A stretch of DNA of 62,314 nucleotides from Bacteroidota bacterium (GTDB taxonomy: Bacteria > Bacteroidota > Bacteroidia > 2-12-FULL-35-15), in assembly GCA_023251835.1 (NCBI GenBank), contig JAHEXZ010000024.1, positions 1 through 62,314 on the forward strand, in the 5' to 3' direction. A program made the translations under genes and the position numbers. Shown here piece after piece: positions 34,513-39,740 of this stretch (its first letter is position 1; each line of letters opens with the position of its first letter). The notes under the pieces are model-generated. The model made no database searches. It had not been told where the DNA came from and saw only the letters and a program-made list of their open reading frames with translations.

Positions 34513-34555
34513 GCCCCTCCCGGCCTCCACTGTGGGGGAGGAGTTTAAAGGGGTG
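34513..34555. repeat. GC-rich CCCCTCCC/GGGGGAGG repeat
   Basis: CCCCTCCC (34514-34521) can pair with GGGGGAGG (34534-34541); AAAGGGGTG follows. It starts 3 bp after the VOC gene stop and belongs to the same family as 3643-3676. Confidence 0.55.
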
Positions 34556-34570
34556 AAAATATACTTAGCT

Positions 34571-34597: not shown

Positions 34598-34634
34598 AGT
34601 CGAAGAATAATTAACTCTACGTAAATACAAAAAA

Positions 34635-34664
34635 AGCCTCACCAAAAGGGGAGGTTGGGAGGCG
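34635..34664. promoter_or_regulatory. Repeat-derived hairpin containing the ribosome-binding site of the decarboxylase gene
   Basis: GCCTC at 34636-34640 can pair with GAGGC at 34659-34663. GGGAGG (34657-34662) lies 5 bases before the ATG at 34668 and is a strong Shine-Dalgarno sequence, unusual in a phylum that mostly uses A-rich leaders. The element is another GC-rich dispersed repeat. If folded, it would mask the site. Confidence 0.45.
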
Positions 34665-34667
34665 CTT

Positions 34668-37409
34668 ATGAACTCAAAACATTACAATGTAAATCAATTA
34701 CGAATTGATTTATGGAATGAGCTAAAAGAAAAAACCAACGCAATAACACGTATTCCGTTGGAAGATAAAAGCCATAAAGAGCGTTTAACGGATATACATG
34801 AAGTGCTTCGGAATTTGTTGAGCATTGAGCAGTATTTTGCTTTCCCTGGTGCTTCACTTGTCAGTCGCATCATTGCTGCAATAAAAAAGGGAGAACTAAA
34901 AGCGGTTAGTAATCAGGTTGCAGAAATAGTACATTTATTGGTTAGCGACAATTACCGCACTCATCCGGAAACAATGGATGAGCATTTTGAAGAGCGCTTC
35001 AGGAATGAAATAATTCCTCCGAAACAGGCAAGCGCAACAAAAAAGAATTATTTTGAAGTTCTTTATGTTGAAGACTTATCTGTTAATGAAGAAATTGTCA
35101 TAAAAAACAGGATAAAGGAAATAATCAATCCACTTAGTACATTAACGTATGATCTGCTGGTACAGCGCTCTTTCCAGGATGCCTTAATTTGTCTTTTTTT
35201 CAATTATAATATTCAGGCTGCAGTGATTAGGTCGGCACCTTTATACTATTCTTCCAACATTACATCATTAATCCGGCCTTTTATTCAGAATGTGTTGAAA
35301 ATAGATTTATCAGGTGTTGCTAATGCCGAATTGGGGTTATTGCTTGGTAAGTATATACGTCAGTTCAGACCTGAATTAGATATTTATTACATAACAGATG
35401 CTTCATTAACACATCTGGAAGATACTACTCTGAATACCTTTAGACGTATTTTTTATCGTATGGAAGATTTGCAGGAGTTACATCTGACAATTATCAATGG
35501 TATCAATGAACGTTTTGAAACTCCTTTTTTTACTGCTTTAACGGAATATAGCAAAAAACCAACAAGTGTGTTTCATGCTATGCCTATTTCAAGAGGTAAT
35601 TCGGTTTTTAAATCGCGCTGGATTTCTGATTTGGGTGATTTTTATGGACGCAATGTATTTTTGGCTGAAACATCTGCCACCAATGGGGGACTTGATTCTC
35701 TGTTGCAGCCTAAAGGCACAATGAAAAGAGCACAACAGAAAGCGGCAAAAGCATTTGGGGCAGAACATACCTTTTTTGTAACTAATGGCACATCAACAGC
35801 CAATAAAATTGTACAGCAGGCATTGATACGTCCTGGTGACGTAGTGCTGGTTGACAGGGATTGTCACAAATCACATCACTATGGATTAGTACTGGCAGGC
35901 GCCTTTCCGGTGTATTTAGATTCTTACCCTATCCAGGAACACTCTATTTATGGAGCTGTACCATTGAAAGTGATAAAGGAAAAGCTGATGACACTTAAAA
36001 ATGCGGGCAGGTTAGATAAAGTAAGAATGTTGTTACTGACCAACTGTACGTTTGATGGCCTGGTATATAATGTAGAGCGGGTAATGGAAGAAGTGCTTGC
36101 CATAAAGCCCGATATGGTGTTTCTATGGGATGAAGCATGGTTTGCTTATGCCGGCTTTACTTATACTTTTAAACAACGTACAGGAATGTATGTGGCACAA
36201 AAATTATTTCAAAAATACCGGAGTGAGGCTTATAGGGAGCAGTACAAAGAACATATTGCGGGATTAAAGCCTGGTGAGCAGCCTTCTTTACCTGATCCTG
36301 AAAAAGTGAAGATAAGAGTATATGCCACTCAAAGTACACATAAAACGCTTTCCTGTTTCCGTCAGGGCTCAATGATACAGATATGGGATGAAGAATATAG
36401 CCGCAGGGTTGCCGATAATTTTCAGGAGGCCTATATGACACATACTACCACATCGGCTAACTACCAGATAATAGCTTCTATGGATGCAGGCCGCAGGCAG
36501 GTGGAGCTGGAAGGATATGAGCTGGTGGAAAAAAGCATTGAGATGGCAATGATATTACGTTCTAAAATACAAAACCATCCAAAACTCAGTAAATATTTTC
36601 ATGTACTTTCTGTGGAGGATATTATTCCTAAAAAGTATCGTGAATTTGGATTGACTGAATATTATACTCCCGAAAACGGCTGGACACGTATGGAGGATGC
36701 CTGGGAAAAAGATGAGTTTGTGTTGGACCCCACTAAAATTACGCTTTCTGTGGGTAAGGCAGGTATCAGTGGCGATGCATTTAAAAATAATTATTTGATG
36801 GATCGTTTTAATATTCAGTTGAATAAAACTTCACGTAATACGGTTTTATTTATGACTAATATTGGAACAACAAGAGGAAGTGTTACTTTCTTAATTAATG
36901 CCCTGTTGCAGATTGCTGCCGAATTGGATGAAAGCAACCGTTCACTGAATAAAAGAGAGGCTGAAATTTCAAAAAAACACATAGATTCATTAATAAACAA
37001 TGCGCCCCCATTGCCTGATTTCAGTTATTTCCACCGTTCATTCCAGGCTACACCGGGGGTGCCGGGAGGTAATATTCGTGAAGCCTTCTTCTTAGCTTAT
37101 GATGAGGATATGTGCGATTATATTCCTTTGAAGGTTTGTTTACTTGAGTTGAAAAATAACAGGGAACTGGTTTCTACCTCTTTTGTGATTCCTTATCCAC
37201 CAGGATTTCCAATACTCGTACCCGGACAGGTAGTGAGTGAAGAAATTCTTCGTTTTATGATTGCCTTGGATATTAAAGAAGTACATGGCTATCGTGCTGA
37301 TTTGGGATTGAAAGTGTTTACAGAAGAAGCATTGAACCGTAAAAATACGCTTTCTGCGATGGGTGCTATGCCTGTTAATATTGGTGGGAAGACCAAGTCT
37401 AAAAGTTAA
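34668..37409 (+). CDS. PLP-dependent Orn/Lys/Arg-type decarboxylase, long form
   Basis: The 913-residue protein has about 320 N-terminal residues of unassigned or wing-like sequence, then a fold-type-I PLP domain of the ornithine/lysine/arginine decarboxylase family. Recognisable are FGAEHTFFVTNGTSTANKIV, VDRDCHKSHHYGLVLAG, LLTNCTFDGLVYNVE, the PLP-ring Asp in FLWDEAWFAYAG, and the Schiff-base Lys in ATQSTHKTLSCFRQGSM. A C-terminal domain (about 750-900) has CDYIPL and VIPYPPGFPILVPGQVVS, typical of this family. It is longer than E. coli CadA/LdcC (about 710-715), mainly at the N-terminus. It should remove CO2 from a basic or related amino acid to give an amine; the substrate is not readable. 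The ATP-grasp gene follows 14 bp downstream. Confidence 0.88.
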   Translation: MNSKHYNVNQLRIDLWNELKEKTNAITRIPLEDKSHKERLTDIHEVLRNLLSIEQYFAFPGASLVSRIIAAIKKGELKAVSNQVAEIVHLLVSDNYRTHPETMDEHFEERFRNEIIPPKQASATKKNYFEVLYVEDLSVNEEIVIKNRIKEIINPLSTLTYDLLVQRSFQDALICLFFNYNIQAAVIRSAPLYYSSNITSLIRPFIQNVLKIDLSGVANAELGLLLGKYIRQFRPELDIYYITDASLTHLEDTTLNTFRRIFYRMEDLQELHLTIINGINERFETPFFTALTEYSKKPTSVFHAMPISRGNSVFKSRWISDLGDFYGRNVFLAETSATNGGLDSLLQPKGTMKRAQQKAAKAFGAEHTFFVTNGTSTANKIVQQALIRPGDVVLVDRDCHKSHHYGLVLAGAFPVYLDSYPIQEHSIYGAVPLKVIKEKLMTLKNAGRLDKVRMLLLTNCTFDGLVYNVERVMEEVLAIKPDMVFLWDEAWFAYAGFTYTFKQRTGMYVAQKLFQKYRSEAYREQYKEHIAGLKPGEQPSLPDPEKVKIRVYATQSTHKTLSCFRQGSMIQIWDEEYSRRVADNFQEAYMTHTTTSANYQIIASMDAGRRQVELEGYELVEKSIEMAMILRSKIQNHPKLSKYFHVLSVEDIIPKKYREFGLTEYYTPENGWTRMEDAWEKDEFVLDPTKITLSVGKAGISGDAFKNNYLMDRFNIQLNKTSRNTVLFMTNIGTTRGSVTFLINALLQIAAELDESNRSLNKREAEISKKHIDSLINNAPPLPDFSYFHRSFQATPGVPGGNIREAFFLAYDEDMCDYIPLKVCLLELKNNRELVSTSFVIPYPPGFPILVPGQVVSEEILRFMIALDIKEVHGYRADLGLKVFTEEALNRKNTLSAMGAMPVNIGGKTKSKS

Positions 37410-37423
37410 ACAAATAGAATTAT

Positions 37424-38896
37424 ATGGCAACCAAAACCTTAAAAACAATAACCGACATCCGGCAGTTTTTTAAAAGCAATGAAACGCCCGTTTATTTTAT
37501 TAGCGCTACTAACTTTAATTTGCTGGGCATGGATGAGTGGGTAAAGGAATTCAAATTCATTAGTCATATCGATTCTTTTGATGGTCAGCATCCTAACTTA
37601 TTTTCTCCTAAGGAAGAAGTACCTCATGAAGAATTTCAGAGTATAGAAGACATAAATAATTATTTGCTGCAACATCCTGAAGTTATTAATTATATTAAAT
37701 CCCGTTGTGTAAACGGAAAAGCAGGAAAAGCATTGTTTTTAATGTTTGATGAAAAAACAGAACAGCTTGCCAAAGCACTGGGATTGGATGTTTGTTTTCC
37801 TCCGGCAAGGCTGCGTTCTTTTCTCGACAATAAAGTAAATACCAACCGTGTAGCAGAAAAGGCCGGTGTAGCCTGTGTTCCCTATGTTTTATCGCCTGTG
37901 GAGAGCTACAGCCAGTTATGCAAAGTAGCCGGAAAACTGGGCGAAAACTTAGTAATTCAAACACCCTATGGCGATTCAGGGCACACTACTTTTTTCATTT
38001 CCAATGAAGAAGATTTTGATAAATACAAAGAAGAGATTCTGAAAGAGAAAGAAGTAAAAATAATGAAACACATCAACTGTTATGGTACCGCAATTGAAGG
38101 ATGTGTTACAAAGCATGGAACACTGGTAGCTCCACTCATGGCAGAGTTGGTAGGCTTTAAGGAGCTGACTCCATATAAAGGCGGCTGGTGCGGCAATGAA
38201 ATATATGGTAATGCTTTTACTCCGGATATACGCGAAAAAGCAAAAAAACATACACAGCGTTTTGGTGATCAGCTTCGTAAAGAAGGATATAAAGGATACT
38301 TTGAACTGGACTTTTTAATTGACAAAGACAATGGCGAAGTATACCTTGGTGAGCTGAACCCACGTATTTCAGGGGCCAGCTCTATGACTAATCATGCATT
38401 GTTTGCTGTAACAGATGTGCCGCTCTTTTTGTTCCATTTGCTGGAATGGATGGATGTGCCTTATGAAATAGATGTAAATGAACTTACAAACCGTTGGACA
38501 AAAGCTGAAAATATGGACAGCTGGAGTCAGCTGATTATTAAACATACACGAAAAACTCTTGAATTTACTACAGAGGCAGCTGCATCTGGTATATGGGAAA
38601 TGCAAAGAAACGGAAGAATTAAATTTAAAAAAATGAATACCCACCGTCAATCCGTTGTAGGTGATAATGAAGCGTTTTTTCTGCAAATCACTCAAAAAGA
38701 CGATTACCTGTACGAAGGGGCAGATATGGGTATTCTGGTGATGAGAGGCCGTTTAATGACTGACGATTTCCAGCTTACTGAAAGAGCAAAAAGATGGATC
38801 AGGGCTTTGCGAATGCAATACAAAGCAGATATGATAGATGCCAGCTTATTGACCGAAGAGGAACTTATGGAAGCCGGAGATTTTAAGTTGTTATAG
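37424..38896 (+). CDS. ATP-grasp ligase (biotin-carboxylase-like)
   Basis: A 490-residue ATP-grasp enzyme. An N-terminal Rossmann-like part (about 1-120) is followed by LRSFLDNKVNTNRVAEKAGV, which opens the ATP-grasp fold. Then come the flexible Gly-rich loop IQTPYGDSGHTTFFI and the metal-binding strand pair YFELDFLIDKDNGEVYLGEL followed by NPRISG, whose Glu and Asn hold Mg-ATP. No biotinyl or carboxyltransferase domain is present, so despite resemblance to carbamoyl-phosphate synthase and biotin carboxylase it more likely joins a carboxylate to an amine through an acyl phosphate. The 14-bp gap after the decarboxylase points to a shared pathway. Confidence 0.85.
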   Translation: MATKTLKTITDIRQFFKSNETPVYFISATNFNLLGMDEWVKEFKFISHIDSFDGQHPNLFSPKEEVPHEEFQSIEDINNYLLQHPEVINYIKSRCVNGKAGKALFLMFDEKTEQLAKALGLDVCFPPARLRSFLDNKVNTNRVAEKAGVACVPYVLSPVESYSQLCKVAGKLGENLVIQTPYGDSGHTTFFISNEEDFDKYKEEILKEKEVKIMKHINCYGTAIEGCVTKHGTLVAPLMAELVGFKELTPYKGGWCGNEIYGNAFTPDIREKAKKHTQRFGDQLRKEGYKGYFELDFLIDKDNGEVYLGELNPRISGASSMTNHALFAVTDVPLFLFHLLEWMDVPYEIDVNELTNRWTKAENMDSWSQLIIKHTRKTLEFTTEAAASGIWEMQRNGRIKFKKMNTHRQSVVGDNEAFFLQITQKDDYLYEGADMGILVMRGRLMTDDFQLTERAKRWIRALRMQYKADMIDASLLTEEELMEAGDFKLL

Positions 38897-39035: not shown

Positions 39036-39740
39036 ATGAATTGCATAATCGTTGATGATGATGAATTAATACAGAATACACTGGAAGCCTTAGTTACAGA
39101 AACAGATTTCTTAAACTTGGTAAAGGTCTGTAGTACAGCCAGTGAAGCATCTGAAATTTTAAAGCAGGAAGAAATCGATTTAATTTTTCTGGATGTCAGA
39201 CTACCGGGAATGAATGGTTTTGAATTGCTGAACAGCATAGAAGAAAACAGGCCGCAAATAATAATCATTACTTCCGATAAAGGTATTGCTGCCGATGCCT
39301 ATAATTTTGATGTATGTGACTTTATTTTAAAACCAATTACCCGAATTCGTTTTTTAAAGGCTGTTGCAAAGGCAAAAAGGGCAAAGAGTATGAATATGCA
39401 TACAGATTCGGATAAAAAGTATGCCGCATACGATGCTCTTTTTGTAAAAGTTAATTCTGTTCTGAAAAAAGTAAACGTACATGATATTATCTATATAGAA
39501 GCCATGGCAGATTATCTTACCGTTCATACAGGAACAAATAAGTACGTCTTAAAATCTACCATGAAAAATATTATGGATAAGCTTCCTGAAAAAGAATTTG
39601 TTCGTGTTCACAACTCCTTTATTGTACGTATTGATAAAATTTCAATCATAGAAGAGGCTAAAATATTAATAAACAAAAAAATTATTCCCATCAGTAGAAA
39701 CAAAAGAAAATCTTTGTTGAAAAGTCTTAATTTATTGTAG
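39036..39740 (+). CDS. LytTR-family response regulator
   Basis: The 234-residue protein has an N-terminal receiver domain (IIVDDDELIQ; phosphoacceptor Asp in LIFLDVRLPGMNGFELL; switch Thr/Lys in ITSDKG and FILKPITRIRFL). The C-terminal LytTR DNA-binding domain reads FVKVNSVLKKVNVHDIIYIE, ADYLTVHT and FVRVHNSFIVRIDKI. LytTR regulators bind imperfect direct repeats upstream of target genes. The partner LytS-type histidine kinase is not adjacent, so it is an orphan. It stands alone between the decarboxylase operon and a repeat. Confidence 0.93.
   Translation: MNCIIVDDDELIQNTLEALVTETDFLNLVKVCSTASEASEILKQEEIDLIFLDVRLPGMNGFELLNSIEENRPQIIIITSDKGIAADAYNFDVCDFILKPITRIRFLKAVAKAKRAKSMNMHTDSDKKYAAYDALFVKVNSVLKKVNVHDIIYIEAMADYLTVHTGTNKYVLKSTMKNIMDKLPEKEFVRVHNSFIVRIDKISIIEEAKILINKKIIPISRNKRKSLLKSLNLL

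Follow-up and report, generated by a model that had tools for sequence, protein, structure and literature searches.

In Escherichia coli, the Puu pathway, which proceeds through gamma-glutamyl-putrescine, is specified by a single operon encoding a ligase, an aldehyde dehydrogenase, an amide hydrolase and a gamma-aminobutyric acid (GABA) aminotransferase. In animals, an analogous arrangement is represented by GADL1, an acidic-amino-acid decarboxylase dependent on pyridoxal 5'-phosphate (PLP), which feeds the ATP-grasp ligase CARNS1 (carnosine/homocarnosine synthase), an enzyme using beta-alanine or GABA (PMC7367687). A further point of reference is Rv2531c of Mycobacterium tuberculosis, for which structures obtained by cryogenic electron microscopy (cryo-EM) are available (9n0n/9n0o/9n0p) and whose activity the cryo-EM study left unclarified, according to PMC12910592, where 9N0O is listed as Rv2531c. 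The current work concerns two adjacent genes, designated DEC (a PLP decarboxylase) and ATP (an ATP-grasp enzyme), which are located on a contig of 62,314 nucleotides from a Bacteroidota bacterium (JAHEXZ010000024.1), analyzed at its full length and referred to as the window. The operon to which these genes belong shares with the Puu operon its content of ligase, dehydrogenase, hydrolase and GABA aminotransferase, but it employs other ligase and hydrolase families, is devoid of an amine oxidase and includes a decarboxylase. With GADL1 and CARNS1 it has the logic in common, whereas the GADL1 subfamily is unrelated to DEC and homology between CARNS1 and ATP was seen at superfamily level only. The open-licence literature yielded no published description of the DEC-ATP operon, which is apparently undescribed so far, and no usable report on ATP-grasp/decarboxylase pairs.

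The conservation of the pair was assessed on a locus set composed of 80 loci from a genome-wide scan, nearly all titled Bacteroidota, supplemented by loci from proteobacterial plasmids and from additional genomes, the taxon names being taken from the titles of metagenome bins and possibly wrong. At 96 of the 99 loci offering 3 kb or more of upstream sequence, DEC immediately precedes ATP in the same orientation, the three exceptions being plasmids of Shinella, Roseateles and Cupriavidus necator. The distance matrices of the two proteins are correlated (r = 0.90 for 86 loci, with 0 of 2000 permutations as high), a value to which common ancestry of the carriers contributes. In the window's phylum, ATP is encoded by 4 of 296 genomes, all four of which also specify DEC, and an additional DEC gene is truncated at the end of its contig, while in the G335 phylum (294 genomes; the G335 locus is titled Planctomycetota) all 15 ATP-bearing genomes contain DEC. 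Within the window's genus, ATP was retrieved from nine of 25 genomes, in one case as a fragment only, and the presence of the pair in this genus is therefore patchy. The first-pass annotation of the window had noticed two genes encoded on one strand and separated by 14 bp, and had raised the matter of their adjacency across Bacteroidota; the observation is confirmed, both reading frames being free of internal stop codons, and the adjacency extends far beyond Bacteroidota, with the two genes being functionally linked. It is thus near certain that the pair constitutes a real unit inside a larger operon.

Open reading frames (ORFs) surrounding 118 loci were clustered into neighbour families, and those recurring on the same strand correspond to a class III aminotransferase (c4), a C-N hydrolase (c2), a VOC-like protein (c5), a C45 hydrolase (c3) and an aldehyde dehydrogenase (c6). 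At 78 well-flanked loci, defined by at least 5.8 kb of upstream and 3 kb of downstream sequence, c4 was found 56 times, c2 63, c5 48, DEC 75, c3 56 and c6 35 times, the commonest order being c4 > c2 > c5 > DEC > ATP > c3 > c6, which is conserved in Bacteroidota; the operon enzymes are also present in the G335 phylum and on proteobacterial plasmids. Family searches place c4 with the 4-aminobutyrate aminotransferases (alignment with E. coli GabT, E 2e-114), and its 55 members retain the GabT residues I50 (52 members), R141, which concerns the carboxylate (53), and E211 (54), while the best family matches of c6 are of the succinate semialdehyde dehydrogenase (SSADH) type. Because c4 keeps the GabT residues and c6 is SSADH-like, the pathway would end at a GABA-like omega-amino acid, and since no oxidase or other redox enzyme was found in the operon upstream of the GABA aminotransferase, this endpoint points back to glutamate. 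The c2 family consists of PF00795 hydrolases with weak likeness to N-carbamoylputrescine amidase, formamidase and aliphatic amidase, and c3 of Ntn-hydrolases of the C45_proenzyme/AAT family (PF03417 and NF040521, both above cut-off), whose conserved Cys in a GCSQ motif is, from this motif, the candidate nucleophile. The pair had initially been regarded as a compact two-gene pathway, a view that is not supported: the two genes represent either a relic or the smallest version of an operon of six to seven genes. The window's genus retains c5-DEC-ATP only, and a search for c2, c3 and c4 in the window genome, which is 96.6% complete, retrieved no close copies, the best matches being about 22-34% identical, so that DEC and ATP appear to be retainable without the breakdown enzymes. 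In Shinella and Roseateles XES5, which are without a linked DEC, ATP and the C45 hydrolase lie within a cluster of the arginine to 4-guanidinobutyrate to GABA type, and in Roseateles an unlinked DEC is carried by the same plasmid.

DEC matches Pfam OKR_DC_1 (PF01276) with an E-value of 8.8e-80. Among proteins of solved structure, a sequence search (phmmer) ranks the 'Probable amino acid decarboxylase' 9n0o/9n0n, that is Rv2531c, first with E 4e-236 over residues 7-894, AdiA and LdcI being far weaker matches (E about 1e-58 to 1e-42). DEC is a member of the Rv2531c-type decarboxylase family, to which it is homologous from end to end including the N-terminal approximately 130 residues; Rv2531c also shares its full length and the equivalents of R309, R565, R609, R610 and Q854, but is placed on a long tree branch. 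Considering that residue 4 of the AdiA family model is aligned to DEC residue 131, where the usual wing domain begins, only the first approximately 130 residues represent an addition, besides an insert of approximately 30-40 residues between the two core halves (about 510-548), and the alignment with Rv2531c spans both. Of the approximately 200 extra, mainly N-terminal residues proposed at first, the N-terminal extension thus stands and its size does not. With AdiA, LdcI and their kin DEC has in common the PLP domain, the STHK lysine motif and the wing-domain order, but it differs from them by its additional N-terminus and at the positions described below.

The solved AdiA-/Ldc-type enzymes display the motif YPPGxPxxxPGE, whereas DEC, Rv2531c and 94 of 95 relatives read PGQ; neither the PGE glutamate nor the TPGH loop, both hallmarks of Orn/Lys/Arg decarboxylases, was found in DEC, which has MPISRG at the site of the latter. 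Near-invariant arginines occupy positions that are neutral in these solved enzymes, namely R309 (in the TPGH loop), R565 (a Ser-to-Arg change six residues past the PLP lysine), R609 and R610, and these residues, together with Q854, are invariant in 33 selected members from all branches (ATP-linked, AspT-linked and Rv2531c). Such residue patterns suggest that the side-chain preference of DEC has moved from cationic to anionic or neutral; no usable literature was found on the substrate-contacting Glu of Orn/Lys/Arg decarboxylases. A sister clade of DEC (support 100/100) is encoded beside aspartate-alanine antiporters (AspT, TIGR03802) at six loci from alphaproteobacteria and the G335 phylum, the antiporter of the G335-phylum locus showing 71% identity. 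In the vicinity of these DEC genes, an aspartate 4-decarboxylase is encoded at three of the six loci, SSADH plus a class III aminotransferase at one, and an HdeA/B acid chaperone at one. The family-wide residue changes and the gene context (AspT antiporters, GABA aminotransferase and SSADH) make an acidic substrate class likely for DEC and point to GABA. Based on the residue changes, the AspT context, the GABA-type clusters lacking DEC and the missing oxidase upstream of the aminotransferase, conversion of glutamate to GABA would be favoured, with aspartate to beta-alanine as second choice. The amine or polyamine product of Orn/Lys/Arg type expected at the outset is unlikely in light of the PGE to PGQ change, the gained arginines and the same context. 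The AspT-linked loci (L113, L114, L177, L180, L181 and L182), one of which also encodes a carbonic anhydrase near its HdeA/B chaperone, seem to form an unrecognised module of acidic-amino-acid decarboxylase and antiporter.

ATP scores 754.9 bits against NCBIfam NF005096 (PRK06524, 'biotin carboxylase'; curated cut-off 684), its Pfam matches being weak, while neither Pfam nor NCBIfam detected a biotinyl or carboxyltransferase domain in the protein. A PHROGs search gave no match. The catalytic motifs of both enzymes are intact, as first reported: DEC possesses the STHK lysine K559, and the metal/ATP residues E294, E310, N312 and R314 of ATP are invariant in 22 homologues. The RxQVEHPVTE segment holding the biotin carboxylase catalytic Glu296 was not found in the ATP homologues, which instead read R314-I-S/T-G-A-S-S and have, at the Glu296-equivalent position 318, Ala in 21 of 22 cases and Val in the remaining one. 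Among the neighbouring ORFs of the 118 loci no credible biotinylation site ([AV]MKM) was identified, two matches being spurious, and no biotin carrier or carboxyltransferase is present among the recurrent neighbour families examined, a statement that covers the neighbourhoods of the loci. Therefore, although ATP qualifies for NF005096/PRK06524 by score, the function that the family name implies is not supported, and the initial warning that a 'biotin carboxylase' label would mislead for a protein without these domains was justified; no usable literature was found on PRK06524 or on C45 hydrolases with biotin carboxylase. Because of its membership of the ATP-grasp superfamily and the co-occurring amide hydrolases, ATP is predicted to form an acyl phosphate and, from it, an amide bond.

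Built on the observed operon, its conservation, the co-evolution of its genes, their family memberships and the residue patterns, a scheme is proposed of which we infer every substrate and product: with a probability of roughly 0.4, DEC and ATP form the two-enzyme core of a GABA-centred pathway that makes and reclaims GABA amides. DEC would release the alpha-carboxyl group of an acidic amino acid as CO2, the likeliest reaction being glutamate to GABA (with aspartate to beta-alanine as the alternative), after which ATP would activate a carboxylate, most likely that of GABA, as acyl phosphate and join it to an amine or amino acid X, generating a gamma-aminobutyryl amide. In genomes with the complete operon, the pathway amides would be cleaved by c3, the C45 Ntn-hydrolase, and c2, the C-N hydrolase, the c4 GABA aminotransferase would produce succinate semialdehyde and the SSADH-like c6 would convert this to succinate, whereas the window's genus would possess the synthetic half only (c5-DEC-ATP). 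The earlier notion that one enzyme makes an amine and the other an amide remains the best mechanism, except that the GABA-like decarboxylation product, judging from context, probably contributes its carboxylate. This scheme accounts for the retention of DEC and ATP in the smallest version of the operon, for the relation of the remaining genes to GABA, and for the fact that other sources of GABA can take the place of DEC. Several points weigh against it: a synthetase and a hydrolase for one amide in the same operon call for explanation, c2 and c5 are given no definite role, one Roseateles DEC is located near arginine/ornithine genes, the C. necator cluster is without a clear GABA-forming route, the parts assigned to Q854, R309 and R565 in side-chain recognition are deduced from alignments, and the folds closest to the ATP model belong to enzymes that activate bicarbonate. 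On a more tentative note, the operon may represent a new bacterial gamma-aminobutyryl (or beta-alanyl) amide pathway that operates via an unrecognised class of PLP acidic-amino-acid decarboxylases in the Orn/Lys/Arg fold family, a class that would include Rv2531c and the acid-resistance-like AspT-coupled branch.

The alternative that survives best, which we nevertheless consider unlikely, is that condensation comes first, as in butirosin biosynthesis, where BtrJ and BtrK follow the same condense-then-decarboxylate logic: ATP would join the gamma-carboxylate of glutamate to X, DEC would turn the resulting gamma-glutamyl-X into GABA-X, and the hydrolases would split the latter. The neutral Gln854 fits an amide side chain, and the adjacency of the two genes at nearly all loci and the two amide hydrolases of the operon agree with this order of events; however, the AspT-linked sister DECs possess every family-specific residue while having no adjoining ligase, and a free acidic amino acid is therefore the simpler substrate. 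Only slightly more doubtful is polyamine catabolism resembling Puu, where DEC would generate putrescine, agmatine or cadaverine, ATP would protect one of the amines by acylation, oxidation of the opposite end would fall to the aminotransferase and the dehydrogenase, and GABA or 5-aminovalerate would finally be freed by a hydrolase. The Orn/Lys/Arg fold family of DEC, the resemblance of ligase, aldehyde dehydrogenase and hydrolase to PuuA-C-D, and the arginine-catabolism context in Shinella and Roseateles speak for such a route, but DEC has lost the PGE glutamate and acquired arginines, c4 keeps the arginine for the GABA carboxylate in 53 of 55 members, two oxidations would be needed where one aminotransferase and one dehydrogenase are present, and the antiporters beside the sister DECs are of the AspT rather than the polyamine type.

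A bicarbonate-activating N-carboxylase, similar to PurK or carbamoyl phosphate synthetase, whose carbamate or ureido product would later be removed by the C-N hydrolase, is an improbable identity for ATP. The AlphaFold model of ATP (pLDDT 80.5, pTM 0.82) has biotin carboxylase and PurK as its closest folds (TM 0.5-0.6 on query, 11-15% identity, best PDB E about 1e-17), and c2 is, weakly, closest to N-carbamoylputrescine amidase. These TM-scores are nevertheless modest and ATP-grasp folds resemble one another in general, ATP has Ala in place of the biotin carboxylase catalytic Glu, and the C45 hydrolase would have no obvious role. Two further candidates were rejected: a DavBATD-like route from lysine to 5-aminovalerate, suggested by the DavA/DavT/DavD-like C-N hydrolase, class III aminotransferase and aldehyde dehydrogenase, was dropped because the operon contains no monooxygenase or oxidase, and a guanidine/urea carboxylase was set aside, given that no biotin carrier or carboxyltransferase occurs among the recurrent neighbours. 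A true biotin carboxylase subunit beside an unrelated decarboxylase, as implied by the NF005096 name and score (755 bits versus 684), can be practically dismissed in view of A318 replacing Glu296 in 21 of 22 homologues, the failure to find a convincing biotinylation motif among ORFs flanking the 118 loci and the co-evolution of ATP with DEC.

Returning to the proposed GABA amide pathway, the analysis proposes substrates that can be put to the test, namely glutamate, aspartate or gamma-glutamyl amides, for the decarboxylase family to which the structurally characterized Rv2531c belongs, corrects the misleading database name of NF005096, and defines an operon that spans phyla and links amide chemistry to GABA metabolism. 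This operon is also carried on rhizobial conjugative plasmids: in Rhizobium leguminosarum Vaf10 (L105, 7252-13440), DEC, ATP and the C45 hydrolase adjoin nifHDKEN at a distance of a few genes and are followed by a dipeptide-type ATP-binding cassette transporter, an amidase, an RpiR regulator and a serine hydrolase, the block from C45 to serine hydrolase being also present in S. meliloti SM11. At another locus (L102, 15785-17572), a 595-residue protein annotated as 'alanine racemase' comprises an ornithine-racemase-like domain and an arginase-like C-terminal part, and is possibly a fusion.

Table 1. Positions of DEC, ATP and surrounding features in the window
Feature	Coordinates	Strand	Remarks
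DEC, Rv2531c-family fold-type-I PLP decarboxylase, 913 aa	34668..37409	+	PLP lysine K559; family-specific R309, R565, R609, R610, Q854
ATP, ATP-grasp enzyme of NF005096/PRK06524, 490 aa	37424..38896	+	predicted amide ligase, not biotin carboxylase
Intergenic gap DEC/ATP, 14 bp	37410..37423	+	consistent with co-transcription
c5, small VOC/glyoxalase-fold-like protein, 143 aa	34079..34510	+	window copy below Pfam cut-off, Gillisia relative above it
Urea transporter/Peptidase_M23 ORF, 737 aa	31706..33919	-	TTG start; PF03253 (14-314), Peptidase_M23 (410-504)
Inverted-repeat-like stretch	34514..34560		G+C-rich
Inverted-repeat-like stretch	34630..34663		G+C-rich
TPR (tetratricopeptide repeat) protein, ~205 aa	25755..26372	-	paralogue of the following
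TPR protein, ~205 aa	31029..31643	-	paralogue of the preceding
LytTR response regulator	39036..39740	+	139 bp 3' of ATP

The ORF located 5' of the operon in divergent orientation (Table 1) combines a urea transporter with Peptidase_M23, a seemingly unusual fusion which is found at 12 loci, all from the window's genus and its close relatives. The urea transporter was considered as a partner via an arginine-urea link and rejected, being on the divergent strand and probably a mere neighbour because of this restricted distribution. Between the VOC gene and DEC, the two inverted-repeat-like stretches (CCCCTCCC...GGGGGAGG and GCCTCACCAAAAGGGGAGG), each occurring once in the window and rare by chance, are possibly dispersed repeat elements or a terminator. 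The two TPR paralogues bracket a 438-residue TPR protein and a 902-residue Por-secretion-tail protein, and parts of this block are kept beside the operon within the window's genus. Relatives of the LytTR regulator (cluster 11) are also encoded close to the operon in Gillisia and other carriers, in either orientation.

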